Source: an uncultured SAR86 cluster bacterium (GTDB taxonomy: Bacteria > Pseudomonadota > Gammaproteobacteria > Magnimaribacterales > D2472). From it: 41,995 nt of DNA. The notes under the pieces are model-generated. The model did not search any database. It saw only the letters and a program-made list of their open reading frames with translations, and was not told where the DNA came from. A program made the translations under genes and the position numbers. Shown in pieces: positions 4,690 to 30,499 of this stretch (position 1 is its first letter; each line of letters begins with the position of its first letter). The stretch spans positions 1 through 41,995 of the forward strand of contig CABYHU010000008.1 of assembly GCA_902518715.1 (NCBI GenBank), in the 5' to 3' direction.

Positions 4690-4692
<3 letters not shown>
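4669..4692. terminator. Short inverted repeat joining plsC and gyrB stop codons
   Basis: TAGTTTT (4669-4675) and AAAACTA (4686-4692) form a 7-bp stem with a 10-base loop. The plsC stop TAG is the first three bases and the gyrB stop TAG, on the other strand, is the last three. Either strand reads the stop followed by T residues. It is weak (one G-C pair per arm), so a role as bidirectional terminator is only suggested. Confidence 0.3.
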
Positions 4693-7687
<2,995 letters not shown>

Positions 7688-7690
7688 TTT

Positions 7691-8794
7691 TTAGATTAAA
7701 AGCGGCATCACTACATATTTTAAGTCTGGGTCGTCAGATGGGCTTATAAGACAGCTTTTGTCAGAGCCGTATAGATTTATATTGCAATCATTTGAATCAA
7801 TATTAGATAAAACCTCTTGGATATAGTTCACATTGAAAGCGATCTCCATATCTTCTCCATCATAATTCGATTTAAAACTTTCTTCGCCCTCTTCCTGTTC
7901 TGGATTATTTGCTGAAACTAAAACTTCATTTGATTTAATGTTTAATTTAATGCCTTTAAATTTATCACTTGAAAGGACGCTTACTCTACTTAATATTTCA
8001 GAAAGTTGTTTGGTGTTTGCTGATAAAACTGAGCTCTCGCCAGATGGAAGGACTTGTTCATAGTTTGGAAATTTGCCTTCAATTAACTTACTTACAAAAG
8101 ATGTTGAATCTGTTTTCAGCATAATGGTGTTTGATCCAAGAGAAAGGGTTACTTCTTCAGATGAGTCAGATAACAACTTCCCTATTTCGTTAATTGATTT
8201 TCTTGGTATTATTCCTGATATCTCGCCTGAGACACTTTTCGTTGTTGAGTTTGTTGATATAGCAAGCCTGTGAGCATCGGTTGTAACCGCTGTAATGTTT
8301 TTGTCTTCAATATTTAAATACATTCCATTAAGATAATGTCTCCAATCTTGATTACCCATTGCAAAAGACGTTTTGGTTATAAGATTTCTTAGCACAGATC
8401 CCAAAATAGTAAATTCTGTATTTTCACTTACCACATCAAAGACAGGAAAATCCTCACTAGGAAGAGTTGAAATGGAGTACTTTCCTGAGCCAGATTCTAC
8501 AGACAGCTTGTCGCCGTTCAAGAAAATAGAAATCTCTGATCCGTCAGGTAGAAGCCTGCAGAGTTCATTAAGTTTTTTCGCAGGTGCTGTTGTTGAGCCG
8601 GTGCTTTCAACACTAGTTGGAGTACATGTTGTTTGTACTTCTGACTCAAGATCGGTGGCAGTAATAGAAATATTGTTATCTTCAACTTTTAAAAGGACAT
8701 TAGAGAGAATTGGAAGTGCCTGCCTTTTTTCAACAACTCCAAGAGTTGAAGACAAAGCTTTAACAATCTCTGTTTTGCTAACTGTAAATTTCAT
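7691..8794 (-). CDS. dnaN: DnaN, DNA polymerase III beta sliding clamp
   Basis: 367 residues, the usual length of the beta clamp (E. coli 366). It forms a ring dimer that tethers polymerase to DNA. It opens with [20 protein letters not shown], has the three-fold domain repeat with TDLE (near 45), TDAHRLA (near 173) and the C-terminal YVVMPLL that forms part of the partner-binding pocket (the canonical E. coli end is YVVMPMRL). Its ATG shares one base with the dnaA stop (TGATG), which implies translational coupling. Confidence 0.97.
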   Translation of the reverse strand: MKFTVSKTEIVKALSSTLGVVEKRQALPILSNVLLKVEDNNISITATDLESEVQTTCTPTSVESTGSTTAPAKKLNELCRLLPDGSEISIFLNGDKLSVESGSGKYSISTLPSEDFPVFDVVSENTEFTILGSVLRNLITKTSFAMGNQDWRHYLNGMYLNIEDKNITAVTTDAHRLAISTNSTTKSVSGEISGIIPRKSINEIGKLLSDSSEEVTLSLGSNTIMLKTDSTSFVSKLIEGKFPNYEQVLPSGESSVLSANTKQLSEILSRVSVLSSDKFKGIKLNIKSNEVLVSANNPEQEEGEESFKSNYDGEDMEIAFNVNYIQEVLSNIDSNDCNINLYGSDKSCLISPSDDPDLKYVVMPLLI

Positions 8795-10089
8795 CAGTTT
8801 GTAAGGGACCTTATTAAGTTTTTGTAATCCTCTTCTAGGGAGCTGTTTTCCACCCTAAGTTCCTTAATTTTATTGCATGCATGTATTACGGTTGTGTGGT
8901 CTCTTCCGTTAAAGGCTTCGCCAATTTCTGGTAGACTGTGATTTGTTAGCCTTTTTGTCAGCGACATTGCTAGTTGTCTTGGTCTGGTAATAGAGCGACT
9001 TCTTCTTTTTGAAAGTAGATCTGAAAGCTTGATGTTGTAATATTCTGCAACAGTTTTTTGAATATTATCAATGCTAACCATCTTTGCAGATATAACGAAT
9101 AAGTCTTTAAGAGCATCCTTAACTAAAGGAATGTCTATTTCTTGGTTTGTAAACTTAGCGTTAGCGACAACTCGTTTTAAAGCTCCTTCAAGCTCTCTTA
9201 TGTTTGATCTAATTCTCTGAGCTATATATATAGCGCACTCATTAGGTAAGTGACAACCCATTGAGGAAGCTTTGGCGAGCAATACTGCTGCTCTAGTTTC
9301 AAGCTCTGGTGGGTCTATCACAACCGGAAGCCCCCAACCTAGTCTTGATTTTAATCTTTCTTCTAGGCCATCGATTTCTTTTGGATACTTGTCACAAGTG
9401 AGCACCATTTGATTATTTCTATCTAGTAGCGCATTAAAGGTGTGGAAAAACTCTTCTTGTGATTGCTCTTTTCCTGCAAAAAACTGAATATCGTCAATTA
9501 AAAGAGCATCAGCCGTCCTGTAGAAGTTTTTGAACTCGTTAATTGCGTTTAGTTGAAGGGCTTTGACCATATCAGCAACAAATTTCTCTGAATGAACATA
9601 TATCACTCTTTTTGATGGATCTTGGTTGAGAATCTCATTCCCTACTGCGTGCATTAGGTGAGTTTTTCCCAAACCAACACCTCCATATATAAATAAGGGA
9701 TTGTAGTCACCTGTCGGGTTTTGAGCAACCTGTTTTGAAGCTGCTAAAGCTAGATGGTTTGATTTTCCCTCCACAAAAGTATCAAAGACAAAAGACTCAA
9801 CTAGGCCTGGGTTGTTTTTTCTTCTACTGGAGGGCTTTTCAACATATTTATCAACAAATGTTGAGTTATTCTTGTCTTTAAATATTATTTTTGTATCCTT
9901 TGAGGCTACGACTTCATAAATGTGGCTTTTTAGATTATTTGAAACATAATTTAGTACAAAGTCATTTGGGGCGGAAATTTCTAATGAGTTTTCTTTAAAC
10001 TCTCCTTGAAGAGGCCTTATCCAGGTATTAAACTCATCTTGGCTGAGCTTTTTTTCAAGTTTTTTTGATATTTGGTTCCAGGTCTTCAA
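8794..10089 (-). CDS. dnaA: DnaA, chromosomal replication initiator
   Basis: 431 residues, a little shorter than E. coli (467), with a short linker domain II. Domain I opens with [22 protein letters not shown]; the AAA+ domain III has Walker A GGVGLGKT (136-143), Walker [14 protein letters not shown] and sensor/box VII region; domain IV has the DNA-binding signature [14 protein letters not shown] near the end. It binds DnaA boxes and opens oriC. First gene of the leftward dnaA-dnaN-recF-gyrB operon. One perfect DnaA box lies about 70 bp upstream of its start, suggesting autoregulation or an origin. Confidence 0.97.
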
Positions 10090-10249
10090 TTTCTATCCTC
10101 TTGGCTGTAGTCTAGCAAAAATTAACAAGATATCTACAGAATAACTAATAGTATTTCCTGTGGATAACTTGTCAATAACTTTATCTTCTTTTTTTGACAT
10201 AATTTTGTTTATTTTATGTATAATGCATCTCTAATTTTTACTACCAACC
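10090..10249. other. dnaA-rpmH intergenic region with DnaA box
   Basis: Divergent gap of 160 bp. TGTGGATAA at 10159-10167 is an exact DnaA box (reverse complement of TTATCCACA); ATATCTACA at 10130-10138 is a two-mismatch relative. This position holds oriC in Pseudomonas. Only one strong box and no change of strand composition is seen here, so it is more likely the dnaA autoregulatory region or a secondary cluster than the main origin. Confidence 0.6.
10194..10224 (+). promoter_or_regulatory. Probable sigma-70 promoter for rpmH
   Basis: TTGACA (10194-10199) and TATAAT (10219-10224), both consensus, separated by 19 bp, which is longer than the ideal 17. Transcription would begin near 10231, about 20 bases before the rpmH start. 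Confidence 0.55.
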
Positions 10250-10384
10250 ATGAAAAGAACTTTTCAACCAAGCAACCTTAAGAGAAAAAGAACTCATGGC
10301 TTTCGAGCTCGCATGGCAACCAAGGCTGGGCGTGCAGTTCTTTCAAGAAGAAGAAGAAAGGGTAGAAAAGTTTTGTCTGCATAA
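10250..10384 (+). CDS. rpmH: 50S ribosomal protein L34
   Basis: A 44-residue highly basic protein starting [20 protein letters not shown] and ending RKVLSA, a near-textbook L34. It is part of the large ribosomal subunit. The ATG follows the TTGACA/TATAAT promoter and rnpA begins one base after its stop. Confidence 0.97.
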
Positions 10385-10385
10385 C

Positions 10386-10664
10386 TTGTCTTTAAAACAA
10401 TTAAAAAAGATCTACTCAACCAATTTTGTAGCTGCGTCTTTAACCGGAAAGTCTGGTGTTTTTATTTCTACGCCTAAAAAGATTTTTCCTAAGGCTGTTG
10501 ATAGGAACAAGATTAAGAGAAGGATCAGGTCTATTATTTTTGATGCGGGTTTTGAGTCTACGTCTTTTGGGATTAAGTTAATCGTAAGGGAGGATTTTTT
10601 AGCTCTTAATTATAAAGAAGCTTATAATGAAATTAGCGCAGTAATAAAAAAGGCAGTTTTATAA
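10386..10664 (+). CDS. rnpA: Ribonuclease P protein component
   Basis: The protein cofactor of RNase P, which helps the catalytic RNA mature tRNA 5' ends. The RNR motif region is present as FPKAVDRNKIKRRIRS, preceded by GVFISTPKK. I chose the TTG at 10386, one base after the rpmH stop, giving 92 residues. The frame stays open upstream to 10296, but that stretch lies inside rpmH in another frame and gives an acidic EEEERVEKF segment that does not belong to the basic RnpA family. At 92 residues it is shorter than E. coli RnpA (119). Confidence 0.85.
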   Translation: MSLKQLKKIYSTNFVAASLTGKSGVFISTPKKIFPKAVDRNKIKRRIRSIIFDAGFESTSFGIKLIVREDFLALNYKEAYNEISAVIKKAVL

Positions 10665-12200
10665 ATGAAAAATTTTAACTTAAGGTTTTTATATTTATTC
10701 TTTGTTGCTTTGTTTGGGTACCTGTTGTTTTACTCATACACAAGCGAGCAAAACATTGCAAATACTGTAGACCAAGAAGAAGTAAGTACTAACTATTTAG
10801 CTGGTTTTAATGAGTCACAAATTCATATACTAGAAAACCCTCTCCTAGAGATAGTTGTTGATACAGTGAATGGAAACATATTGAGCTCTCGACTAAAAAG
10901 CTATCCGGTTGTACCTGGGTCTGATGGCGGTGTTAGAGTTCTTGGCTCGGGTCTTGATAGTGATGGTGAGCAAATGAGATTTTACATGTCCTCAGGTTTT
11001 GCAGATCTTGAGAGCGCTGGCCTTTCAAACAAACCAAACTTCTCTGTTGCGGAGTCAAGCAAAGAAAAGATTGTTCTAAAGTCTGACGGTTTATCAAAAA
11101 CAATAACCTTGTCTGAAGGTTATGAAATTTACATTAAAGACTCTCTTGATTCTTCGGTTATTTTGAAGCCTTATGCCCAAATGTTGAGAACCACGGGCAG
11201 GGGTTTTGACCTAGATGATATGTTTATCTCTCGCAGTTCTTATGTTGGTGTTGCTTTTAACACCAAAGATGATCCATATGTGTCTTACCGTTTCAGAAAC
11301 ATCGACAACATAAGTTTCGATGAGCGCGGCGGTTGGGTTGCTTCAGTTCAGAAATATTTTTTAGCTGCTCTAATTGGTTCCCGGGAAAACCTTTATAGAT
11401 ATTTTGCTCGCGAGCCGTCTGATGGTTCTGATATATATAGTTTTGGTTATATTGTTGAGTCATCAAACAACAACTCTTTTGAGCATAGGCTTTATATAGG
11501 TCCTAAAATCAGGAAAGACCTCCTTGCTGTTGCTGAAGATTTAGAGCTCACAATAGATATGGGGTGGTTTTGGTTTTTGGCCCAGCCTTTAGCCGCTCTT
11601 CTTACTGTTATTAATGGTTTTGTTAATAATTGGGGGCTCTCAATAATTGCATTAACTATTCTTATTAAGGTTGTTTTTTGGCCGCTAACTGGAAAAGGGT
11701 TTAGGTCTATGGCTAATATGAGGCGCGTTCAGCCAGAAATGCAGAGGATACAGGAGCGTTATAAAAACGATCGTCAGAAATTAAGTATGGAAATGATGAC
11801 TTTATATAGGAAAGAGGGTGTTAATCCTATGGGCGGCTGTTTGCCTATGTTGGCATCTTTTCCATTCTTTATAGCTTTATTTTTTGTTTTAAGGGAAAGT
11901 CTTGAGTTAAGACATGCGCCTTTTGGTTTGTGGCTTCAGGATCTTTCAGCGCCTGACCCGTTTTTTGTTCTTCCTGTGCTAATGGCGGCTCTTATGTACT
12001 TAACAACTCGCCTTAATCCAACTCCGCCAAACGCTGACCCAACACAGGTCGCTGTTATGAAGTTTATGCCAATTGGTATATCTGTGTTGTTTGTGTTTTT
12101 CCCTTCTGGGCTTGTTTTGTACTCGGTTGCCAACTCTGGCGTTCAGCTTATTCAACAGACAATGCTTTACAGAGAGCTTGGCGCCTTAGAAGATAAATAG
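10665..12200 (+). CDS. yidC: YidC membrane protein insertase
   Basis: Inner-membrane insertase/chaperone of 511 residues working alone or with SecYEG. An N-terminal membrane segment (about 5-23) is followed by the large periplasmic beta domain of Gram-negative YidC and then the conserved core: WFWFLAQPLAALL, GLSIIALTILIKVVFWPLT, QPEMQRIQERYKND, NPMGGCLPMLASFPFFIALFFVL, and a final pair of helices ending YRELGALEDK. The ATG follows the rnpA stop with no spacer. The small gene yidD, which normally lies between rnpA and yidC, is missing here. Confidence 0.96.
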   Translation: MKNFNLRFLYLFFVALFGYLLFYSYTSEQNIANTVDQEEVSTNYLAGFNESQIHILENPLLEIVVDTVNGNILSSRLKSYPVVPGSDGGVRVLGSGLDSDGEQMRFYMSSGFADLESAGLSNKPNFSVAESSKEKIVLKSDGLSKTITLSEGYEIYIKDSLDSSVILKPYAQMLRTTGRGFDLDDMFISRSSYVGVAFNTKDDPYVSYRFRNIDNISFDERGGWVASVQKYFLAALIGSRENLYRYFAREPSDGSDIYSFGYIVESSNNNSFEHRLYIGPKIRKDLLAVAEDLELTIDMGWFWFLAQPLAALLTVINGFVNNWGLSIIALTILIKVVFWPLTGKGFRSMANMRRVQPEMQRIQERYKNDRQKLSMEMMTLYRKEGVNPMGGCLPMLASFPFFIALFFVLRESLELRHAPFGLWLQDLSAPDPFFVLPVLMAALMYLTTRLNPTPPNADPTQVAVMKFMPIGISVLFVFFPSGLVLYSVANSGVQLIQQTMLYRELGALEDK

Positions 12201-13520
12201 ATGTCTGTAATTTACGCGCTTGCCACGCCACCGGCGCAATCTGCAATTTGTGTTTTCAGGGTTTCGGGAAAAGGCTGTCTTGACGCTCTTCCTGAGCTTT
12301 TTAGCTCACAACTTGTTGAGCCGCGCTATTTTTATAAGACTGAAATGCTAAGCAAGGGAAATTTTGTTGACTCAGTGGCGGTTGTTTTTTTTAAAGGGCC
12401 TAAAAGTTTTACTGGCGAGGATGGTTTTGAGGTTTATGCTCACGGAGGTCTTGCGGTAATGAGTAAGGTTGTAGAAGCTTTTGATGGAGTTGGTTTTGAG
12501 GAGGCTGAGCCAGGTGAGTTTTCGAAGAGGGCTTTCTTAAACAATAAAATTTCCTTAAGTCAGGCCGAAGCTGTTAGTGATCTAATTTCAGCTTCTTCAA
12601 AAGAAGAGGCATCGAAAGTTTCCTTGGTTCTTCGTGGAGACTTTGAGAGCAAGGTTTTTGATTTTTCTGGGCGGTTAGATGCTCTTCGAGTCTTGGTTGA
12701 AGGTGAAATTGATTTTACCGACGAAGACGAGGTCTTTGTTCAAAATCTAAAAGAGCTTGAGTGTGATGTGTCTCGCCTTTCAGCTGAGTTTTCAAGCTTT
12801 GCGGGCGCCTGCTCTTCAACGAAAGACAGTCTTAACAAGCCGCGAGTTTTGATTGCTGGGCCGCCTAATTCTGGTAAATCCTCTTTGTTTAACGCTTTGT
12901 TGAGTAGGGACAGGTCAATCGTGTCTTCGATAGCTGGTACAACAAGAGATTTTATAGATTCAGAGCTTGTTCTCCAAAATATAGTGTTAACCCTGGGCGA
13001 TAGTGCTGGTGTCAGAGACACCGATGACCTTATAGAGGGTGCTGGTATCAGCATTAGTTTTGGTGAAATAAAAAAATCTGATTTGGTAATCCTTGTTTTT
13101 GATGAAGAAACTAGAGGCTCTGTTTCTTTTTTTAAGGAGCTGCTTGATGAGCAAGAACACCTTTTGGTTTATAACAAGATAGATGTGTCAGATAAAAGGC
13201 CGCTGGGGTTTGATTTGTTTGTATCAGCGAAAGAAATGGATGGCTTGGGCGTCCTGCGTAAAACTTTAGATAAGAAGTTGTCGGTTGATAAAGGTGAAAA
13301 AGATCTTACTTATTTGGTCAGGGAAAGACATGTAAATATTTTTTCTGAAGTTTCCTCTAGATTAGACCTTGTATCATCTTCGATTAAAGCAAACGAATCG
13401 CTTGATGTTGTTGCTGAAAACTTAAAAGCTTGCAGAGATTTGTTAGCTGAAGTCGTAGGTATAAAAACAAGCGATGAGCTTTTGGGTGAAATTTTTTCTA
13501 GTTTTTGTATTGGAAAGTAG
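12201..13520 (+). CDS. mnmE: MnmE, tRNA modification GTPase
   Basis: With MnmG it adds the carboxymethylaminomethyl group to U34 of certain tRNAs. 439 residues: N-terminal tetrahydrofolate-binding domain, a helical domain, and a G domain inserted from about 215 to 360, with G1 GPPNSGKSS (220-228), G2 around TTRD, G3 DSAGVRDTDD (DxxG with Ser in place of the usual Thr) and G4 NKID. The C-terminus FCIGK holds the conserved catalytic-site cysteine. The ATG follows the yidC stop directly. Third codon positions are strongly T/G-rich, in contrast to mnmG, the next gene. Confidence 0.96.
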   Translation: MSVIYALATPPAQSAICVFRVSGKGCLDALPELFSSQLVEPRYFYKTEMLSKGNFVDSVAVVFFKGPKSFTGEDGFEVYAHGGLAVMSKVVEAFDGVGFEEAEPGEFSKRAFLNNKISLSQAEAVSDLISASSKEEASKVSLVLRGDFESKVFDFSGRLDALRVLVEGEIDFTDEDEVFVQNLKELECDVSRLSAEFSSFAGACSSTKDSLNKPRVLIAGPPNSGKSSLFNALLSRDRSIVSSIAGTTRDFIDSELVLQNIVLTLGDSAGVRDTDDLIEGAGISISFGEIKKSDLVILVFDEETRGSVSFFKELLDEQEHLLVYNKIDVSDKRPLGFDLFVSAKEMDGLGVLRKTLDKKLSVDKGEKDLTYLVRERHVNIFSEVSSRLDLVSSSIKANESLDVVAENLKACRDLLAEVVGIKTSDELLGEIFSSFCIGK

Positions 13521-13728
13521 TTAATTGTTTGTTGATAAATTGTTAGTTGTTTTTAGCGCTGTTTTTTATACACAAGATTTCAACCGCTTTGTTTCTTCTA
13601 AATTAAGGGTTTCTACACATGCTTATTAAAAGGCAAAAAGCCCTTATTTAAATAGCTTTTGATGGCTTATCAACAGTTTTTTGTATGCCTAATAATAACA
13701 ACAATAAATATATATAATTAATATTATT
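13521..13728. other. oriC: Candidate replication origin (oriC) between mnmE and mnmG
   Basis: 208 bp without a gene. TTATACACA (13566-13574) is an exact DnaA box of the TTATNCACA class. One-mismatch relatives are TGTTGATAA (13530-13538, reverse strand), TTCTACACA (13611-13619) and TTATCAACA (13667-13675). From 13690 to the mnmG start the sequence is almost pure A/T with TAATAATAACAACAATAA-like repeats, suitable as an unwinding element. Strand composition flips across this gap, and in E. coli oriC also lies beside mnmG. No GATC site is present, so Dam/SeqA-type control as in E. coli is not supported. mnmG must be transcribed from within or through this gap. Confidence 0.65.
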
Positions 13729-15549
13729 ATGAATAATAAATATGATGTAATTGTTATTGGTGGAGGGCATGCAGGATGTGAAGCAGCCCATGCTGCGCAT
13801 AGAAAAAAACTTAAAACTTGCCTGGTTAGTATATCAAAAAGCTCCATAGGTCAGATGTCTTGTAATCCCGCAATTGGAGGTTTAGGAAAAACACATCTTG
13901 TCAAAGAAATTGATGCGGCTGGCGGCATTATGGCAGAAGCAACCGACGCATCCGGAATCCAGTACAGGACTCTGAACACAAGAAAAGGGCAAACCGTTCG
14001 ATCACTCAGAGTTCAGTGCGACAGGGACAAATATAAAGAGGCTGTTCAAAAAATAATAAAAGGGACTGATATTGAAGTCATAGAAGCAGAGGTTGAGGAT
14101 ATTGAAATAAACAACGGTAAAGCAGAAGCTGTCCTACTAAATAGCGGAAAAAGAATAGATGGTAACGCGATAATTTTAACCACAGGAACTTTCTTAAAAG
14201 GAATAATGTATAAAGGCGACAAAAAAACCGAAGGTGGTAGAGTTGGTGACAAAGCTTCAGTAAAGCTGGCCAACAAACTTTATTCTTTAAAACTACCTAT
14301 GGGGAGACTAAAAACAGGAACCCCAGCAAGAATAAAGCTAACATCGCTTGATTTGGAAAGTATGGATGAGCAGCCGGGCGAGGAACCAACACCCTGGATG
14401 TCAAAAAAAGGCAAAAACAGAAAACATATAAAGCAGATAAGCTGCTATATAACAAGAACCAACATCGAGACGCATAAAGAAATCTCAGACAATATCAAAA
14501 AATCTGCTATGTATTCCGGAAACATAGTCGGTATAGGACCAAGATATTGTCCGTCAATAGAGGATAAAATCCATAAATTTCCACTAAAAGAAAGCCATCA
14601 AATCTTCATTGAGCCAGAGGGGGTTGATGTAGATCTTGTTTACCCAAACGGAATATCAACAAGCCTCCCCGAAGAAAACCAAAAAAGATTTATACAAACA
14701 ATAAAAGGTATGGAGAGCGCTGAAATAACGGAATACGGCTATGCCGTAGAGTATGATTTCGTAGACCCGAGAGCCCTTAACAAAACGCTCGAGCTTATAG
14801 ATGTTGAGAATCTGTACTTAGCAGGCCAAATAAACGGAACCACAGGATACGAGGAAGCAGCTGCGCAAGGCCTAATGGCCGGGGTGAATGCAAGTCTAAA
14901 AATATGCAACGAGGAAAGCCTTATATTGGAAAGACATGATGGTTATATAGGCGTACTAATAGACGACCTTACAAATCTTGGCGTGACAGAACCATACAGG
15001 ATGTTTACTAGTAGAGCGGAACACAGACTAATGTTTTCACAGGATAACGCCGAACAGAGACTTTTAGAGAAATTTTACAAAAAAGGGTTCGTCGAAAGTG
15101 AGCAATATAATAGATATTCAGAGCAAGAAGAAGCATATGAAAACTTCAAAAAGCTTAACGAGGTAAAAACAATACAAACAGAAAACAAAAAACAACAACT
15201 AAAAGACTTTTTAAAAAAACCAAACCCAGACTTGAAAAAAGTTGCCAAACTTATAGAAACCAAAGATCAAGAAAACCTTGAGCGACTTGCGAACGAGTGT
15301 AAGTACGAAGGCTATATAAAAAAACAACTACGAGAAATTAAAAGGAACGAAAAAAACCTAAAAAAACTCATACCCGAGACAACAAATTTCGAAGAGATAG
15401 AGGGGTTGTCAGCCGAAGTGAAAGAAAAACTCTCTGCAAGCAGGCCAAAAACAATCGGCGACGCTTCCAGAATAGAGGGAATAACACCAGCTGCAATAAG
15501 CTTAATTACTGTGGCAATTGCTAAAAACAGAAATAGAGATGTCACATAG
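13729..15549 (+). CDS. mnmG: MnmG (GidA), tRNA uridine-34 modification flavoprotein
   Basis: 606 residues, slightly shorter than E. coli (629). FAD-binding partner of MnmE in making cmnm5U34. It starts with the dinucleotide-binding motif VIVIGGGHAGCEAA (residues 6-19), followed by SCNPAIGGLGKTHLVKEIDAAGG and later NGTTGYEEAAAQGLMAG and FTSRAEHRL, all diagnostic. The C-terminal part is lysine/asparagine-rich and A-rich at DNA level. The last 11 bases overlap rsmG. First gene to the right of the candidate origin. Confidence 0.97.
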   Translation: MNNKYDVIVIGGGHAGCEAAHAAHRKKLKTCLVSISKSSIGQMSCNPAIGGLGKTHLVKEIDAAGGIMAEATDASGIQYRTLNTRKGQTVRSLRVQCDRDKYKEAVQKIIKGTDIEVIEAEVEDIEINNGKAEAVLLNSGKRIDGNAIILTTGTFLKGIMYKGDKKTEGGRVGDKASVKLANKLYSLKLPMGRLKTGTPARIKLTSLDLESMDEQPGEEPTPWMSKKGKNRKHIKQISCYITRTNIETHKEISDNIKKSAMYSGNIVGIGPRYCPSIEDKIHKFPLKESHQIFIEPEGVDVDLVYPNGISTSLPEENQKRFIQTIKGMESAEITEYGYAVEYDFVDPRALNKTLELIDVENLYLAGQINGTTGYEEAAAQGLMAGVNASLKICNEESLILERHDGYIGVLIDDLTNLGVTEPYRMFTSRAEHRLMFSQDNAEQRLLEKFYKKGFVESEQYNRYSEQEEAYENFKKLNEVKTIQTENKKQQLKDFLKKPNPDLKKVAKLIETKDQENLERLANECKYEGYIKKQLREIKRNEKNLKKLIPETTNFEEIEGLSAEVKEKLSASRPKTIGDASRIEGITPAAISLITVAIAKNRNRDVT

Positions 15550-16105
15550 CGACAAAATAGAGCTCTTTAAAGAAGAAACAATTAAGTTCAACAGGAAGCA
15601 CAATCTGATATCAAGAAAAAACACAGAGAAAATAATAGATGAGGCAATCGAAGAAGCGACAGCTCTTACAAAATACCTAAAACAACATAAAAACATTTTA
15701 GATATTGGAACAGGGAGCGGGCTCCCGGGCATACCTCTTGCAATTTTTAACGAAAATAAAAACGTATATTTATCTGAAAAAAACAACAAAAAAAACTATC
15801 ATTTAAAAAAAACAATTAAGCTGCTCGAAATAGAAAATGCAACAACCATCGGAAGCGCCAACAAAAACACAAAAATAAATAAAAAAGTAGATTGTGTTGT
15901 CACCAAGGCGTTTGCCTCCACAAAAAAAACAATAGATATAGCTAATAGTTTTTTAGAAAAGCCTTTTACCCTAATGCTATTAAAAGGAAAGCTTAAAACC
16001 ATCAACAAAGAGATCGCAGAAGCCAACATATCAAAAGAAAACTATGAAATAATAAAAATAGAAAACGAAAAAGAAAAACATATACTAAAAATACAAAATG
16101 AATAA
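15539..16105 (+). CDS. rsmG: RsmG (GidB), 16S rRNA m7G527 methyltransferase
   Basis: SAM-dependent methyltransferase of 188 residues (E. coli 207). The SAM-binding motif I is ILDIGTGSGLPGIPLAIF, and NLISRKN and a late LLKGK are family features. I chose the ATG at 15539 (MSHSDKIELF); the frame also has a TTG at 15518, seven codons upstream, which would lengthen the overlap with mnmG from 11 to 32 bases. The protein is extremely rich in Lys and Asn, matching the A-rich + strand in this segment. Its end overlaps parA by 8 bases. Confidence 0.92.
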   Translation: MSHSDKIELFKEETIKFNRKHNLISRKNTEKIIDEAIEEATALTKYLKQHKNILDIGTGSGLPGIPLAIFNENKNVYLSEKNNKKNYHLKKTIKLLEIENATTIGSANKNTKINKKVDCVVTKAFASTKKTIDIANSFLEKPFTLMLLKGKLKTINKEIAEANISKENYEIIKIENEKEKHILKIQNE

Positions 16106-16859
16106 AACCCTTGCCATTGCAAACCAAAAAGGGGGCGTAGGAAAAACAACAACAGCTGTAAACCTAGCTGCAAGTTTAGCGGCAACTGGCAGAAAAACCC
16201 TCTTAATCGACATGGACCCACAAGGAAACGCCACATCCGCAGCAGGGGTTACAAAAAACGAGGCAGATACACTTTATGCAACCTATTTCGAAGGGAAAAA
16301 CATCAAAGATGTAATTAAAGAAAGTAGAGACGGTTATTCAATTGTTCCCGGGGGGCAGGAGCTAATTGCGCTTGATGTTGATATAAGAGATAACCACAAA
16401 CAAGGCTTTCTCGCGTCACGACTTAACGATGTCCAAAACACATATGACTATACAATAATTGATACCCCGCCAACCTTAAACCAACTAACGACAGAAGCCT
16501 TGCTTTCATCAGCAGGAACACTAATACCGCTGCAGTGTGAGTATTATTCACTTGAGGGGCTAACGGACCTAATTAATACCATAAACGCACTATCATCCAA
16601 AACCAACACCAACAACAGGGTGATTGGTATTATTAGAACAATGGTGGATATGAGAAACAATTTAGCAAAAGAGGTTTCGCGAGAGCTTGAGACACACTTT
16701 GAGAAAGTTTTATTTAATACACTAATACCAAGAAATGTTAAACTTGCTGAAGCTCCAAGCTTCGGAATTTCTGCGCTACAACACAAAGCAGATTCTTTTG
16801 GCGCAATGGCTTACCTAGCTCTAGCCGGTGAGCTAATTAGAAGAGTTGAAAATGAGTGA
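16098..16859 (+). CDS. parA: ParA (Soj-type) chromosome partition ATPase
   Basis: 253 residues of the short chromosomal ParA class, which pulls ParB-parS complexes along the nucleoid. The deviant Walker A KGGVGKTT (with the signature lysine) is at residues 11-18, followed by LLIDMDPQGNAT and IIDTPPTLNQLTTEALLS. There is no N-terminal helix-turn-helix, as expected for chromosomal rather than plasmid type Ia ParA. It overlaps both rsmG and parB by 8 bases, so the mnmG-rsmG-parA-parB set is likely one transcript. Confidence 0.96.
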   Translation: MNKTLAIANQKGGVGKTTTAVNLAASLAATGRKTLLIDMDPQGNATSAAGVTKNEADTLYATYFEGKNIKDVIKESRDGYSIVPGGQELIALDVDIRDNHKQGFLASRLNDVQNTYDYTIIDTPPTLNQLTTEALLSSAGTLIPLQCEYYSLEGLTDLINTINALSSKTNTNNRVIGIIRTMVDMRNNLAKEVSRELETHFEKVLFNTLIPRNVKLAEAPSFGISALQHKADSFGAMAYLALAGELIRRVENE

Positions 16860-17682
16860 TAACAAATCTTTAAACCGCGGACTTGATGCCCTCTTAGGCG
16901 ATCAAAAACCTACTACAACAACAAAAGAAATCGACCTAGAAAAAATAACAGCTGGAAGGTATCAACCGCGACAAGAGTTTGATGATGTGAAAATTCAAGA
17001 ACTTGCTGACTCAATCAAAAAACACGGAGTTTTATCTCCAATCTTGGTTCGAGAGGCTGGGCTTGATAAATTTGAGGTCATAGCTGGAGAGAGAAGAGTC
17101 AGAGCTTCAAAAATCGCAGGTTTAAAAACAATTCCTTCTCTTGTTAACCAAAAAGAAGATCAAGAAGCCCTTGAAGCCGCGCTTATTGAAAACCTGCAGA
17201 GAGAAGACTTAAACCCAGTTGAAGAAGCCAAGGGATATGACCGACTGAAAAGAGAGTTTGAATTAACACAAGACGAAATTGCTAAAGCAACCGGTAAGGC
17301 AAGAAGCACAATAGCAAACTCTATGAGAATACTTTCTTTATCGCCAAAAATATTAGATATGATTTCTCAAGGATCTTTAGAAAAAGGGCACGCAAAGATT
17401 CTCTCAGGCTTGGAGACCACAAAATCAGAACAACTAGCAGAAGTAATTTCGCAAAAAAGACTCACTGTGAGACAAGCTGAGGCATTACTAAAGCCAGTTA
17501 AAAAAACAACAAAAACAAAAGAAAAAGATAGAGACACACTAAATATAGAAGATGAAATTAGCGAAAACTTTGGACACAAAACAGAAATAGACACAAAAAC
17601 AACCAAGACCGGTAAAGTATCAATTTTTTATCATTCACCAGATGAGTTGGAGACCATAATTCAAAAACTTCTTAAACTTTAG
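16852..17682 (+). CDS. parB: ParB (Spo0J-type) chromosome partition protein
   Basis: 276 residues using ATG 16852 (MSDNKSLNRGLDALLG), which overlaps the parA stop by 8 bases; an in-frame TTG at 16846 is a less likely start. It has the CTP-binding ParB core (YQPRQEF, IAGERRVRAS with the GERR motif, ENLQREDLNPVEEAKGY) and a helix-turn-helix (LTQDEIAKATGKARSTIANSMRI), a threonine/lysine-rich linker and a C-terminal dimerisation helix. It is expected to bind the parS-like site at 6624. Confidence 0.96.
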   Translation: MSDNKSLNRGLDALLGDQKPTTTTKEIDLEKITAGRYQPRQEFDDVKIQELADSIKKHGVLSPILVREAGLDKFEVIAGERRVRASKIAGLKTIPSLVNQKEDQEALEAALIENLQREDLNPVEEAKGYDRLKREFELTQDEIAKATGKARSTIANSMRILSLSPKILDMISQGSLEKGHAKILSGLETTKSEQLAEVISQKRLTVRQAEALLKPVKKTTKTKEKDRDTLNIEDEISENFGHKTEIDTKTTKTGKVSIFYHSPDELETIIQKLLKL

Positions 17683-17690
17683 AATTATCC

Positions 17691-18612
<922 letters not shown>

Positions 18613-18632
18613 GTTTATAATTTATATTTTAA

Positions 18633-18873
<241 letters not shown>

Positions 18874-18879
18874 TCACAA

Positions 18880-19350
18880 ATGAATATAAACGCTACATTA
18901 ATTTCACAAGCATTGATTTTTGCAGTGTTTGTTTACATTTGTTACAAATATATCTGGCCCCCAATTCTTTCTACTATGGAGGAGAGGGAAAACAAAATGG
19001 CCGCAGGTCTTGAAGCTGCAAAGCAGGCTGACGACTCCCTCGAGGAAGCTAAACTAACCTATGAAAAAGAGTTAAAAGAAGCTAAAGAAGAAGCTGCAAA
19101 CATTGTCGAAAAGGCCAACAAAAGATCTTCACAAATCTTAAATGATGCCAAAGTAAAAGCTGAAGCTGAGGCTGAAAAGATTATTGAATCAGGCTCCAAA
19201 AAGCTTGAAAATGAGGCAAACAAAACACGAGAAGAACTCAAACAACAACTTTCTTCTATCGTGGTCGAGACCGCATCAAAAATAATCGATGAAGAAATCG
19301 ATGAGAAAAAACATGAAAACATTATTAAAAAAGCAGCCAAGGAAATTTAA
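18880..19350 (+). CDS. atpF: ATP synthase F0 subunit b
   Basis: 156 residues, exactly the E. coli length. One N-terminal membrane helix (about 4-27, ending KYIWPPI) followed by a long charged coiled coil that forms the peripheral stalk holding F1 against F0. It starts 6 bases after the atpE stop, with no clear Shine-Dalgarno, and ends directly against the atpH start. Confidence 0.95.
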   Translation: MNINATLISQALIFAVFVYICYKYIWPPILSTMEERENKMAAGLEAAKQADDSLEEAKLTYEKELKEAKEEAANIVEKANKRSSQILNDAKVKAEAEAEKIIESGSKKLENEANKTREELKQQLSSIVVETASKIIDEEIDEKKHENIIKKAAKEI

Positions 19351-19884
19351 ATGTACGACCTAAAGCCACAAGCAAGACCTTATGCAAAAGCAGCATTTCT
19401 TGCAGCGGTGGAAGAGGGTCAAATAAATGAGATGTTTGGCGATTTAAAAGTTCTTTCTGAGGCTTGTTCAGATTCAAGCATCAACAAACTTATTGAAAGC
19501 CCAGAAGAAAAATCAGTAGTTATATCAACTCTAAAAGGTTTATTCTCCAACCAACCAGTTAAACTTACTGAAAACTTGTTAGATATTCTCGGAGAGAATG
19601 ACAGACTAAACTTACTTGCAGCTGTTGCTGAGATTTATGAGGATTTAATGCTCAAGCACAATGAAAGCAAAGTTATAGAGGTTGCAACTCCTAACAATGT
19701 CTCAGATGCAACAAAGCAGATTATCCTTAATAAATTACAAGAAAAACATGGAGACGGCTCAACTATATCCTTTACAAACGATTCAGATTTAAAAGCAGGA
19801 TTTGTTGTAAAGATCGGAGACGAGGTGTTGGACTTATCCATAAAAGGAAGAATCAAAAAATTAATTAATCAATTAAATATATAA
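19351..19884 (+). CDS. atpH: ATP synthase F1 subunit delta
   Basis: 177 residues (E. coli 177). Links the b-subunit stalk to the top of the alpha3beta3 head. It shows ARPYAKAAF near the N-terminus, NLLDILGENDRL in the middle, and the conserved C-terminal DSDLKAGFVVKIGDEVLDLSI-like block. The ATG immediately follows the atpF stop; AAGGAA lies 7 bases upstream in the atpF end. Confidence 0.95.
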   Translation: MYDLKPQARPYAKAAFLAAVEEGQINEMFGDLKVLSEACSDSSINKLIESPEEKSVVISTLKGLFSNQPVKLTENLLDILGENDRLNLLAAVAEIYEDLMLKHNESKVIEVATPNNVSDATKQIILNKLQEKHGDGSTISFTNDSDLKAGFVVKIGDEVLDLSIKGRIKKLINQLNI

Positions 19885-19893
19885 GGTGAAAAT

Positions 19894-21438
19894 ATGAGCG
19901 GACTAAACCCATCTGAAATTTCAAGTGTTCTCAAGGACAAAATTTCAGGGCTTGATCTAAAGGCTGAAACCAAAAACGAAGGAACCATTGTCAATGTTTC
20001 TGATGGAATTATCAGAATACATGGAATGGGCGATGTTATGTATGGTGAGCTCGTAGAGTTTGAAAATGGTGTTTTTGGACTTGCACTTAACTTAGAGCAA
20101 GACTCTGTCGGTGTTGTTGTCCTTGGCGATTACCTTGGGCTAAGTGAAGGTCAAAAAGTTACATGTACAGGTAAGATCTTAGAGGTTCCTGTAGGTGAGG
20201 AAATGCTCGGACGAGTTGTAGACGCTCTAGGAAATCCAATCGATGGAAAGGGGGAACTTAAAACAAAACAAACTGCCCCTATTGAAGTGGTTGCGCCAGG
20301 GGTTATTGCCAGACAATCAGTTGATCAACCAGTGCAAATTGGACTTAAATCAATCGATGCAATGGTTCCAATAGGAAGAGGTCAAAGAGAGCTCATTATT
20401 GGTGATAGACAAACTGGAAAAACAGCTGTAGCAATTGACGCAATAATTAATCAAAAAGGTACAGGAATTAAATGTATTTATGTAGCTATTGGTCAAAAAC
20501 AATCAACAATAGCTAATGTCGTAGCAAAACTTGAAGAGTATGGGGCAATGGAGCACACAATTGTTGTTTCAGCGGCAGCCGCCGATCCAGCTGCGATGCA
20601 ATACCTCTCAGCATATTCAGGTTGTGCAATGGGAGAATATTTTAGAGATACAGGGCAGGATGCATTAATTGTTTACGATGATTTGTCAAAGCAAGCAGTT
20701 GCTTACAGAGAGATATCACTATTGCTTAGAAGGCCTCCAGGTAGAGAAGCTTTCCCTGGAGATGTTTTTTATCTTCACTCAAGACTTTTAGAGAGAGCAG
20801 CTAGAGTGAATGCGGAATACGTAGAAAAAATTACCGAAGGAAAGGTAAAAGGTAAAACAGGATCTCTAACAGCCTTGCCAATTATTGAAACACAAGCCGG
20901 AGATGTATCTGCTTTTGTTCCAACTAATGTAATTTCAATTACCGACGGGCAGATATTTTTAGAAACAGATCTTTTTAATTCAGGCGTTAGACCAGCTATT
21001 GATCCAGGGCTTTCTGTATCAAGAGTTGGTGGAGCCGCACAAACTAAGATAATTAAAAAGCTTAGTGGTGGTATTAGAACAGACCTTGCTCAATACAGAG
21101 AGCTTGCGGCATTCTCACAGTTTGCATCTGATCTAGATGACGCTACAAAAGAACAATTAGAACACGGTAAACGAATTACTGAGCTTCTAAAACAAAAACA
21201 ATACTCTCCAATGAGTGTTGCTGACCAAGCTATGAGCTTATATGCAGCTGACAAAGGCTATATGAAGGACGTTGATATAGATAAAGTGGGCGACTTCGAA
21301 TCAGCTTTATTAGCTTATTTTGAATCAGAAAAATCTGATCTAAAAAAGCAAATCAACGATACTGGAGACTGGGATGATGATATTGAAAACCAGTTTAAGG
21401 AATTAGTTGAAGACTTTAAGAAAACACAAACATATTAA
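19894..21438 (+). CDS. atpA: ATP synthase F1 subunit alpha
   Basis: 514 residues (E. coli 513). Non-catalytic nucleotide-binding subunit with P-loop GDRQTGKT (170-177), the [12 protein letters not shown] block, the [25 protein letters not shown] segment and the arginine finger region [15 protein letters not shown] precedes the start at a good distance. Intact. Confidence 0.98.
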
Positions 21439-21441
21439 GAG

Positions 21442-23695
<2,254 letters not shown>

Positions 23696-28959: not shown

Positions 28960-29010
28960 TAGAATCAAATCACTGTTTAAAAATAGTCAGTTACTGTCGA
29001 ATAGATTTAA
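28960..29010 (+). repeat. Dispersed short repeat, copy C
   Basis: AATCAAATCACTGTT (28963-28977) is identical to the left arm of copy B, and GTCAGTTACTGTCGAATAG (28986-29004) matches the core. The right arm is lost where the end of the leftward gene at 29007 begins, as if another segment had joined within the repeat. Confidence 0.6.
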
Positions 29011-29690
29011 CCCAACTCTGCAATTAGTGGCGAGTGATCGCTATAACTAATCCACTCAGTATAAGAACCCACCTTTAATTCCAAAGGGTTTAGATTCTTA
29101 GAGTAAATATAATCAATGTGATATTTTTTTGACTCTTTTTTTGTATGGAAAAAAGTGGCGTAAGATTCTTTTCCAAAACCTTCATCTTTTAGTTTGTGGT
29201 AATTGCTTACAAAACCCAAGTCCACAAAATGATCATTTATATTATTGAAATTATTATCATTACCTTTTTTATCCCAGATTATTGAGTTATTAAAATCTCC
29301 AGCAACAATACACCTTTCATCATTATCACCAAACCAATCTCTATAGAAATTAATTGCATCAATAGTGTTGCCGCTTACCTCGGAACCAAATTTACTTGCT
29401 CTATGATTAAACGACCAAACACCAAGCAACTTCAGATCATCTGATCTAATAGGAAGAAAATTTATAAGATCTTTGTTATGAGTTTCATCAACAAAGAAAT
29501 CATTTTTCTTAGTTAAGACACCCAAACCCTTATTTTCATTTCTTCCAGTCCAAAAGTATTTATAGTTAGGAAAGAAATCAGATTTAAGTTTCTCACACTC
29601 TTGAATAAAGCAAATATCAGGACCATAAGAATCTATTAATTCAAATTTTTCTTTAAATTTCAGATTACAGTTCCAAGATATGATTTTCAT
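29007..29690 (-). CDS. Endonuclease/exonuclease/phosphatase (EEP) family protein, copy 1
   Basis: 227 residues with all EEP-fold landmarks: MKIISWNCN, IQECE (metal-binding Glu), VAGDFNNS, HIDYIYSK and the terminal SDHSPLIAEL with catalytic Asp-His. The family covers DNases, phosphodiesterases and phosphatases, and the substrate cannot be read from sequence. No signal peptide, so cytoplasmic. Its ATG overlaps the stop of the paralogue upstream by 4 bases (ATGA), so the two are co-expressed. They run opposite to all neighbouring genes. Confidence 0.8.
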   Translation of the reverse strand: MKIISWNCNLKFKEKFELIDSYGPDICFIQECEKLKSDFFPNYKYFWTGRNENKGLGVLTKKNDFFVDETHNKDLINFLPIRSDDLKLLGVWSFNHRASKFGSEVSGNTIDAINFYRDWFGDNDERCIVAGDFNNSIIWDKKGNDNNFNNINDHFVDLGFVSNYHKLKDEGFGKESYATFFHTKKESKKYHIDYIYSKNLNPLELKVGSYTEWISYSDHSPLIAELG

Positions 29691-30499
29691 AAGTTAAGTT
29701 CAGCAATCAATGGCGAGTGATCGCTGATTTTTCTTGTTCTAGGTTCTTGATCATAAAACACATCATCAACTCTCATACTAGATGTACAGAAAATATGATC
29801 ATATCTTCTGCCAATCCCTTTATTTGTAAACCAACTAAAAGACTCTTTCTCATATCCATGTTTAGATCTAAATACATCCTTCATATCTAAATCTGTATGA
29901 TTTTCAATAATGTTTCTTTCAGCAAGATCCCATCTTTCACCAGTACACTCATCCTTCCACTTGGGATTAACAGCAATTCTTACTTTTCCCCTTGAGTTTA
30001 CTTTTTGACTCCAGGTTATAACTACACCAGACATCAACTCTTGTTTTGGAGAATTAAAGTCACCAGTCAATATCATATTCTTAACATTCCTTTGTGATAG
30101 AAATTTATACAGACCTTCAAAATGCTCAACTTTAATAACTCCATTCGATGACCCTGGTGGAACATGGGTAGTGTGAACTTCATAATCCTGTATAGAACAA
30201 GATAAAACCCTTTCAGGAAAAGGAACTGGAGCAAACTCCTCTATATTAACAATAGGACTTTTAGATATTATTATTTGACCATATTTTCTTTTATTCACTA
30301 ATACAGACTTATCTTTAACGAAGTCGAAAGAACATATAACACTCTCATTGGCAAAATAGTCTTTTATAAAACCCTCTGAACCTAAAAGAACTTCTTGAAG
30401 TGTGATTATGTCAAAGTCTCCTTTTCTCAAATAATCACACTGTTCATTCAAATCTCGTTTGTTTGTTCGTGAATTTAAATTCCAAGTTATAACCTTCAT
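29687..30499 (-). CDS. Endonuclease/exonuclease/phosphatase (EEP) family protein, copy 2
   Basis: 270 residues. MKVITWNLN, TLQEV, LTGDFNSP, RYDHIF and SDHSPLIAELNL are the EEP metal and catalytic motifs; all are intact. It shares the general plan and the SDHSPLIAEL ending with copy 1 but the middles differ, so this is an old duplication rather than a recent one. First gene of the leftward pair; divergent from the DUF6994-like gene with a 32-bp gap that must hold both promoters. Role unknown; no toxin, restriction or secretion partner is seen. Confidence 0.8.
   Translation of the reverse strand: MKVITWNLNSRTNKRDLNEQCDYLRKGDFDIITLQEVLLGSEGFIKDYFANESVICSFDFVKDKSVLVNKRKYGQIIISKSPIVNIEEFAPVPFPERVLSCSIQDYEVHTTHVPPGSSNGVIKVEHFEGLYKFLSQRNVKNMILTGDFNSPKQELMSGVVITWSQKVNSRGKVRIAVNPKWKDECTGERWDLAERNIIENHTDLDMKDVFRSKHGYEKESFSWFTNKGIGRRYDHIFCTSSMRVDDVFYDQEPRTRKISDHSPLIAELNL

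Follow-up and report, generated by a model that had tools for sequence, protein, structure and literature searches.

A mirror-image, distance-decaying composition gradient centred on a predicted E. coli-type oriC in SAR86 bacteria

How can a chromosomal origin carry, on its own flanks, the compositional sign of a terminus? The question is raised by the 208-bp gap between mnmE and mnmG in a stretch of 41,995 nucleotides (hereafter ‘the window’), which is one contig of a 24-contig SAR86 genome (1.06 Mb, 85% complete); the closest relatives of this genome are SAR86 cluster bacteria, largely single-cell genomes. The leading strand of bacterial chromosomes usually has an excess of G and T, and the original prediction was that this gap is an oriC at which strand composition flips in the opposite sense. 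The third-position hand counts offered with that prediction are exactly reproduced (T24 G15 A12 C9 for the first 60 codons of mnmE; A24 C14 T7 G5 for the first 50 codons of parA). Its description of flanking operons that point away from the gap is half right: the gene order is gyrB-recF-dnaN-dnaA (− strand), then rpmH and rnpA-yidC-mnmE (+), the gap, and mnmG-rsmG-parA-parB-atp (+), but the rpmH-rnpA-yidC-mnmE genes are directed into the gap, and the actual divergent gene point is dnaA-rpmH, near 10.1–10.2 kb.

The gap is nevertheless well supported as the chromosomal origin, as the original prediction had it. The support comes from an E. coli-type junction of unwinding element (DUE) and R1 box that is found SAR86-wide, and from gene orientation in G010, a complete 1.23-Mb SAR86 genome from a different genus that we used for whole-chromosome tests: its origin is thereby placed at the mnmE-mnmG end of the chromosome, and its terminus near 630 kb. 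From these features we predict an E. coli-type oriC that opens beside mnmG. The exact DnaA box and the three one-mismatch relatives that had been listed for the gap are all present (Table 1), so that the 208 bp hold four boxes with no more than one mismatch. A single one of these matches exactly, and they include an R4-like distal box. Viewed from mnmG, the gap reads TTATTAGG-N12-TGTTGATAA, and the oriC of E. coli K-12 contains TTATTAGG-N12-TGTGGATAA, with equal spacing. The likeness between the two origins thus takes in the TTATTAGG-N12-TGT(G/T)GATAA junction, the position next to mnmG, the AT-rich unwinding side that faces mnmG, and an inverted R4-like box at the far end. They differ in that SAR86 has mnmE where E. 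coli has mioC, in that the SAR86 boxes are weaker, and in that a strong A-to-G composition gradient, absent from E. coli, runs through the SAR86 flanks.

Table 1. Coordinates in the window of the predicted origin, its DnaA boxes and the flanking zones of strand asymmetry
Feature	Position	Strand	Observation
E. coli-type oriC (predicted), mnmE-mnmG gap	13521–13728		Top DnaA-box density in window; layout kept across four SAR86 families (26 genomes); DUE-R1 junction at E. coli spacing
DnaA box TTATCAACA, mnmE end	13530–13538	−	One mismatch; R4-like in position and orientation
DnaA box TTATACACA	13566–13574	+	Exact; conserved within genus
DnaA box TTCTACACA	13611–13619	+	One mismatch; from box search of window
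R1-equivalent DnaA box TTATCAACA (TGTTGATAA viewed from DUE)	13667–13675	+	Separated from TTATTAGG by 12 nt, the E. coli K-12 distance; box or near-box here in most SAR86 genomes
AT-rich unwinding element	13688–13728	−	TTATTAGG on − strand at 13688–13695, followed by CTAATARNAAYAACAATAA-TATATA (as read on + strand), the best-conserved stretch of the gap in the alignment
DnaA box TTATCCACA, dnaA-rpmH gap	10159–10167	−	Exact; divergent gene point; edge of strong left arm
Outer left flank (gyrB, recF, dnaN, dnaA on − strand)	4690–10089		Polarity as left arm, decaying, gene direction opposite; G/(G+A) 0.41, 0.36, 0.32, 0.28 per 1.5-kb bin, z +6.4 to +2.4
Left arm (rpmH, rnpA, yidC, mnmE)	10200–13520		+ strand T-rich; G/(G+A) 0.44–0.46 vs about 0.22 expected
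Right arm (mnmG, rsmG, parA, parB)	13729–17682		+ strand A-rich; C/(C+T) 0.45–0.53, dropping to 0.38, vs 0.21 expected
Outer right flank (atp operon)	17740–22500		Polarity as right arm; C/(C+T) decays to 0.27–0.34

When 26 SAR86 genomes are aligned, each of the four families keeps the R1-box region and the CTAATARNAAYAACAATAA-TATATA element in some variant, with more boxes towards mnmE, and a CTAATA element is conserved across the families in almost every genome. The gap also contains (T/C)AA triplets, but relative to the published polarity of the B. subtilis-type DnaA-trio (3'-GAT-5') they seem to lie on the opposite strand. The TTATCCACA box of the dnaA-rpmH gap is more conserved across SAR86 than the boxes of the mnmE-mnmG gap; it may serve dnaA regulation or act as an auxiliary initiation site. 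No consensus match to parS (up to two mismatches) was found near the origin, either in the window or in G010, though parA and parB are present (16098–17682 in the window); the dif and parS searches used E. coli and B. subtilis consensus sequences and gave nothing usable. In 11 whole SAR86 genomes (G000, G002, G003, G010, G013, G015, G033, G038, G040, G042 and G045) we found DnaB in every case and no match to DciA; above-cut-off matches to PF01695, a model that would include DnaC, occur only at dnaA itself. The helicase loader of SAR86 is therefore unrecognisable by the DciA and PF01695 models.

Around the predicted oriC lies an island of strand asymmetry, which is strong for approximately 4 kb and fades across 8–9 kb on each side. 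On the + strand, TA skew at fourfold sites is +0.47 in yidC and +0.44 in mnmE, then −0.23 in mnmG, −0.51 in rsmG and −0.35 in parA; values close to zero are found in gyrB-dnaA and the atp genes, and the edges of the skew fall near operon ends. The flip at 13.5 kb is far beyond chance: across 442 kb of the window's own genome its statistic is 13.3 (SD 1.91, hence 7 SD), against a maximum of 7.1 elsewhere. The genes concerned contrast in G010 as they do in the window, and the flip there is the strongest in composition on the entire chromosome. In TA skew it ranks 1–2 of 2460 positions (the other being the neighbouring 500-bp step), and at transition-type synonymous sites it ranks first, at 24.1 with an SD of 2.4 (10 SD), the next best value outside the island being 7.6. 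The predicted reversal of the skew sign at the origin is thus correct as a local statement. The further description of a + strand that is T/G-rich to the left whatever the gene direction, and A/C-rich to the right, holds strongly only for 10.2–13.5 kb and up to about 17.7 kb, respectively; in dnaA-gyrB, however, TA skew is near zero even though the + strand remains G-enriched, and beyond 17.7 kb the + strand is only weakly C-rich. The cumulative T−A maximum in the window falls at 13690, at the edge of the CTAATARNAAYAACAATAA-TATATA element, and a pooled fit over the window's family puts the switch 98–225 bp inside mnmG; together, these two estimates locate the switch at the DUE to within a few hundred bases.

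The asymmetry has a distinctive base-change class. We profiled the leading-template strand (+ to the left of the gap, − to the right) at twofold and fourfold sites: G/(G+A) is 0.43–0.48 near oriC and declines to 0.25 at 9–10 kb (rho −0.84), with slopes of −0.026/kb on the left and −0.024/kb on the right, while C/(C+T) is flat at 0.20–0.26 (rho 0.10, not significant). In consecutive 1.5-kb bins to the left of the gap in the window, G/(G+A) is 0.46, 0.44, 0.41, 0.36, 0.32 and 0.28, a series that is unbroken across the change of gene direction at dnaA-rpmH. Amino acids shift in the same sense: relative to outgroup orthologues, the proportion of Ile to Val is lower in MnmE and higher in MnmG, RsmG and ParA (I/(I+V) of 0.38 vs 0.59 for MnmE, 0.68 vs 0.57 for MnmG and 0.76 vs 0.61 for RsmG). 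Like the canonical GC and TA skew of bacteria, this pattern changes sign at the origin; unlike it, the sign near oriC is opposite, the effect is local, and it is driven by A/G instead of C/T.

The contrast is present in SAR86 families f1–f4, strongest in the window's own family and weaker in f3 and f4. The difference between mnmE and mnmG ranges from 0.08 to 0.73 in SAR86, as against −0.03 in other Gammaproteobacteria (SD 0.03, n=6), and the signal is absent near oriC in E. coli, although oriC adjoins mnmG there too. A codon bias intrinsic to mnmE and mnmG was rejected, since orthologues from other Gammaproteobacteria do not have it; because the two genes may not flank an origin in every one of these outgroups, such bias is mainly what the comparison excludes. 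Our survey of the literature, which covered open papers incompletely, returned no report of skew in SAR86, nor of any bacterial chromosome with a deamination gradient centred on oriC. It appears that an ordinary E. coli-type oriC is here combined with an unusual and so far unreported origin-centred gradient of mutation type.

Three explanations have little probability. One was part of the original prediction: that the lineage as a whole has an inverted strand bias. Fourfold sites in G010 are indeed weakly inverted over entire replichores (lead minus lag GC4 −0.119, SD 0.015; TA4 −0.042, SD 0.007), and the cumulative GC4 and TA4 maxima fall within about 0.7 kb of the gap; this weak inversion may reflect mutation or codon selection on leading-strand genes. 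The raw GC skew of the G010 replichores is nevertheless canonical (right +0.041, left −0.052), the skew of its intergenic DNA is weakly canonical, and the strong signal is limited to a few kilobases over which it fades, so that a lineage-wide inversion is largely refuted and retains, in our estimation, very little probability. In this relative the raw cumulative GC-skew minimum lies 114 kb away from the gap (maximum at 632.6 kb), on account of which skew-based origin callers would misplace the G010 oriC. No more probable is an effect of transcription-linked mutation or of codon choice in the flanking operons: the left arm is one operon and its coding strand is T/G-rich, as transcription-exposed coding strands can be, but orthologues elsewhere lack the bias and the gradient tracks distance; transcription as the cause is rejected because the coding-strand bias of the right arm is opposite, yet polarity persists through the oppositely directed dnaA-gyrB genes. 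It is also improbable, if slightly less so, that skew is canonical and that forks meet at the gap, which would be a local mini-terminus between two flanking initiation sites (for example dnaA-rpmH and a site beyond parB). Inward forks would yield the canonical signs of a G/T-rich leading strand, and the best-conserved DnaA box is that of the dnaA-rpmH gap; the switch, however, is located at the conserved DUE-R1 junction, and beyond the arms the polarity fades without changing sign.

The mirror-image gradient instead suggests that one template strand stays bare for unusually long at the start of copying. We hypothesize that leading-strand synthesis starts late at oriC, that its template is consequently single-stranded for kilobases, and that A-to-G changes are fixed there by deamination; to us, the case for this account is finely balanced. 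At initiation, two helicases would move outward from oriC, and continuous copying of each leading-strand template would begin late and then catch up over several kilobases. Such a late start could arise if each leading strand were the opposing fork's first, distant primer, extended back across the origin. The leading template (+ on the left, − on the right) would then be single-stranded for longest near oriC and for less time with distance. Adenine on the bare strand would be deaminated to hypoxanthine, which would be poorly repaired without EndoV and AlkA, and the resulting loss of A would leave an asymmetry that is mirrored across oriC, decays with distance and has the reverse sign of the usual leading-strand skew. 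In the SAR86 genomes searched, EndoV and AlkA_N were found in 0 of 11 and UDG in 11 of 11; this combination could explain why the lasting mark would be that of adenine rather than cytosine deamination. Several considerations count against the account: the TA-skew edges lie close to operon ends, EndoV and AlkA are, to our knowledge, absent too from many organisms not known for such a gradient, and a zone of several kilobases is long relative to Okazaki fragments.

Recent substitutions bear on this reading in a mixed manner. When changes within the genus are polarised on the leading template, three of four segments favour A>G; rates are 0.196 for A>G vs 0.084 for T>C in the right arm, and 0.211 vs 0.095 in the outer zone, where all the genes are leading-coded and a coding-strand effect is therefore not separable. 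The exception is the left, mnmE-side arm, in which small counts show no excess of A>G (5/101, vs 18/274 for T>C); the bias may therefore be weak now in the window's genus, or may not be mutational. Within the genus, synonymous transversion divergence is also approximately threefold lower from 10200 to 19900 (rnpA to atpH) and changes abruptly at dnaA-rpmH. A uniform zone of low mutation was rejected, as low synonymous divergence is inconsistent in other genera; the block is for that reason probably patchwork recombination, which may in turn distort the polarised counts.

The mnmE-side arm keeps alive the idea that selection maintains a T-rich strand to the left of oriC and an A-rich strand to the right, whether for the structure of the origin domain, for strand-specific motifs or for nucleoid or segregation proteins. 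The unbiased recent changes, the reduced synonymous divergence that the block shows within the window's genus and the position of the arm ends near operon ends would all fit; other genera do not generally share the low divergence, though, amino acids are shifted too, and the effect is a gradient of base class (A/G only) rather than a motif, and we judge selection unlikely. Marginally less unlikely is a process that is linked to replication but not to single-stranded DNA, namely leading-strand synthesis near oriC by another polymerase, or by a replisome still immature, whose errors have a different spectrum, or a reduction there of C-to-T changes on the complementary strand. Such a process would have the same strand symmetry and position, and G/(G+A) alone cannot separate a gain of A-to-G from reduced G-to-A; on the other hand, a polymerase switch predicts a step, and the combination of smooth decay with flat C/(C+T) is the known pattern of deamination in single-stranded DNA.

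The late-start account has precedents. The region separating chloroplast origins bears A-to-G gradients, as does a multi-origin R6K-like plasmid of E. coli (Krishnan and Rao 2009, PMC2695485); in the chloroplast work, a strand-specific A-to-G gradient with distance is read as a record of time spent single-stranded (PMC2695485). The SAR86 pattern resembles these D-loop origin gradients in its A-to-G class, in its presence at synonymous sites and in being linear with distance in opposite directions; it differs in belonging to a bacterial chromosome with a single DnaA-type oriC, in a zone of <10 kb and in affecting the leading-side template strand. Transition gradients in mtDNA are attributed to a single-stranded replication intermediate (PMC8565317), and the strand-asynchronous replication of vertebrate mtDNA is similar in its strand-specific transition gradient, ascribed to single-stranded time, but mtDNA also has a gradient of cytosine deamination, whereas SAR86 has flat C/(C+T) and a zone that extends in both directions. 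As to the priming arrangement, the first primer on each strand in E. coli is the leading-strand primer for the opposing fork (PMC13220808), and in yeast, too, the first primer serves the leading strand of the opposing fork (PMC6344338). We tentatively extend the proposal, with rather less conviction than we have in late synthesis as such: replication in SAR86 might start in a D-loop-like manner, the leading template being bare for kilobases on either side of oriC through late leading synthesis, possibly in connection with a helicase-loading system that is so far unrecognised (neither DciA nor a separate DnaC-like protein was matched), and leaving a permanent A-to-G scar.

The establishment of leading strands at bacterial origins is known mainly from purified systems; if a late start is the cause, base composition alone would record how leading-strand synthesis is set up at the origin of a bacterial chromosome. 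It would also supply a comparative test for late leading-strand starts that is applicable to any genome, a warning that GC-skew origin callers can go astray near such origins, and a fine-scale origin call for SAR86, which is largely uncultivated and is among the most abundant groups of the surface ocean. SAR86 has a strain in culture whose genome is closed (PMC11582366), and the late-start mechanism is therefore directly testable.

Two features of composition lie elsewhere in the window. Fourfold TA skew is an outlier, at +0.38, in a trkH-like gene (233–1663) 12 kb away from the mnmE-mnmG gap. At 29007–30499 on the − strand, two neighbouring endonuclease/exonuclease/phosphatase-like ORFs have third positions that are A-rich on the + strand.
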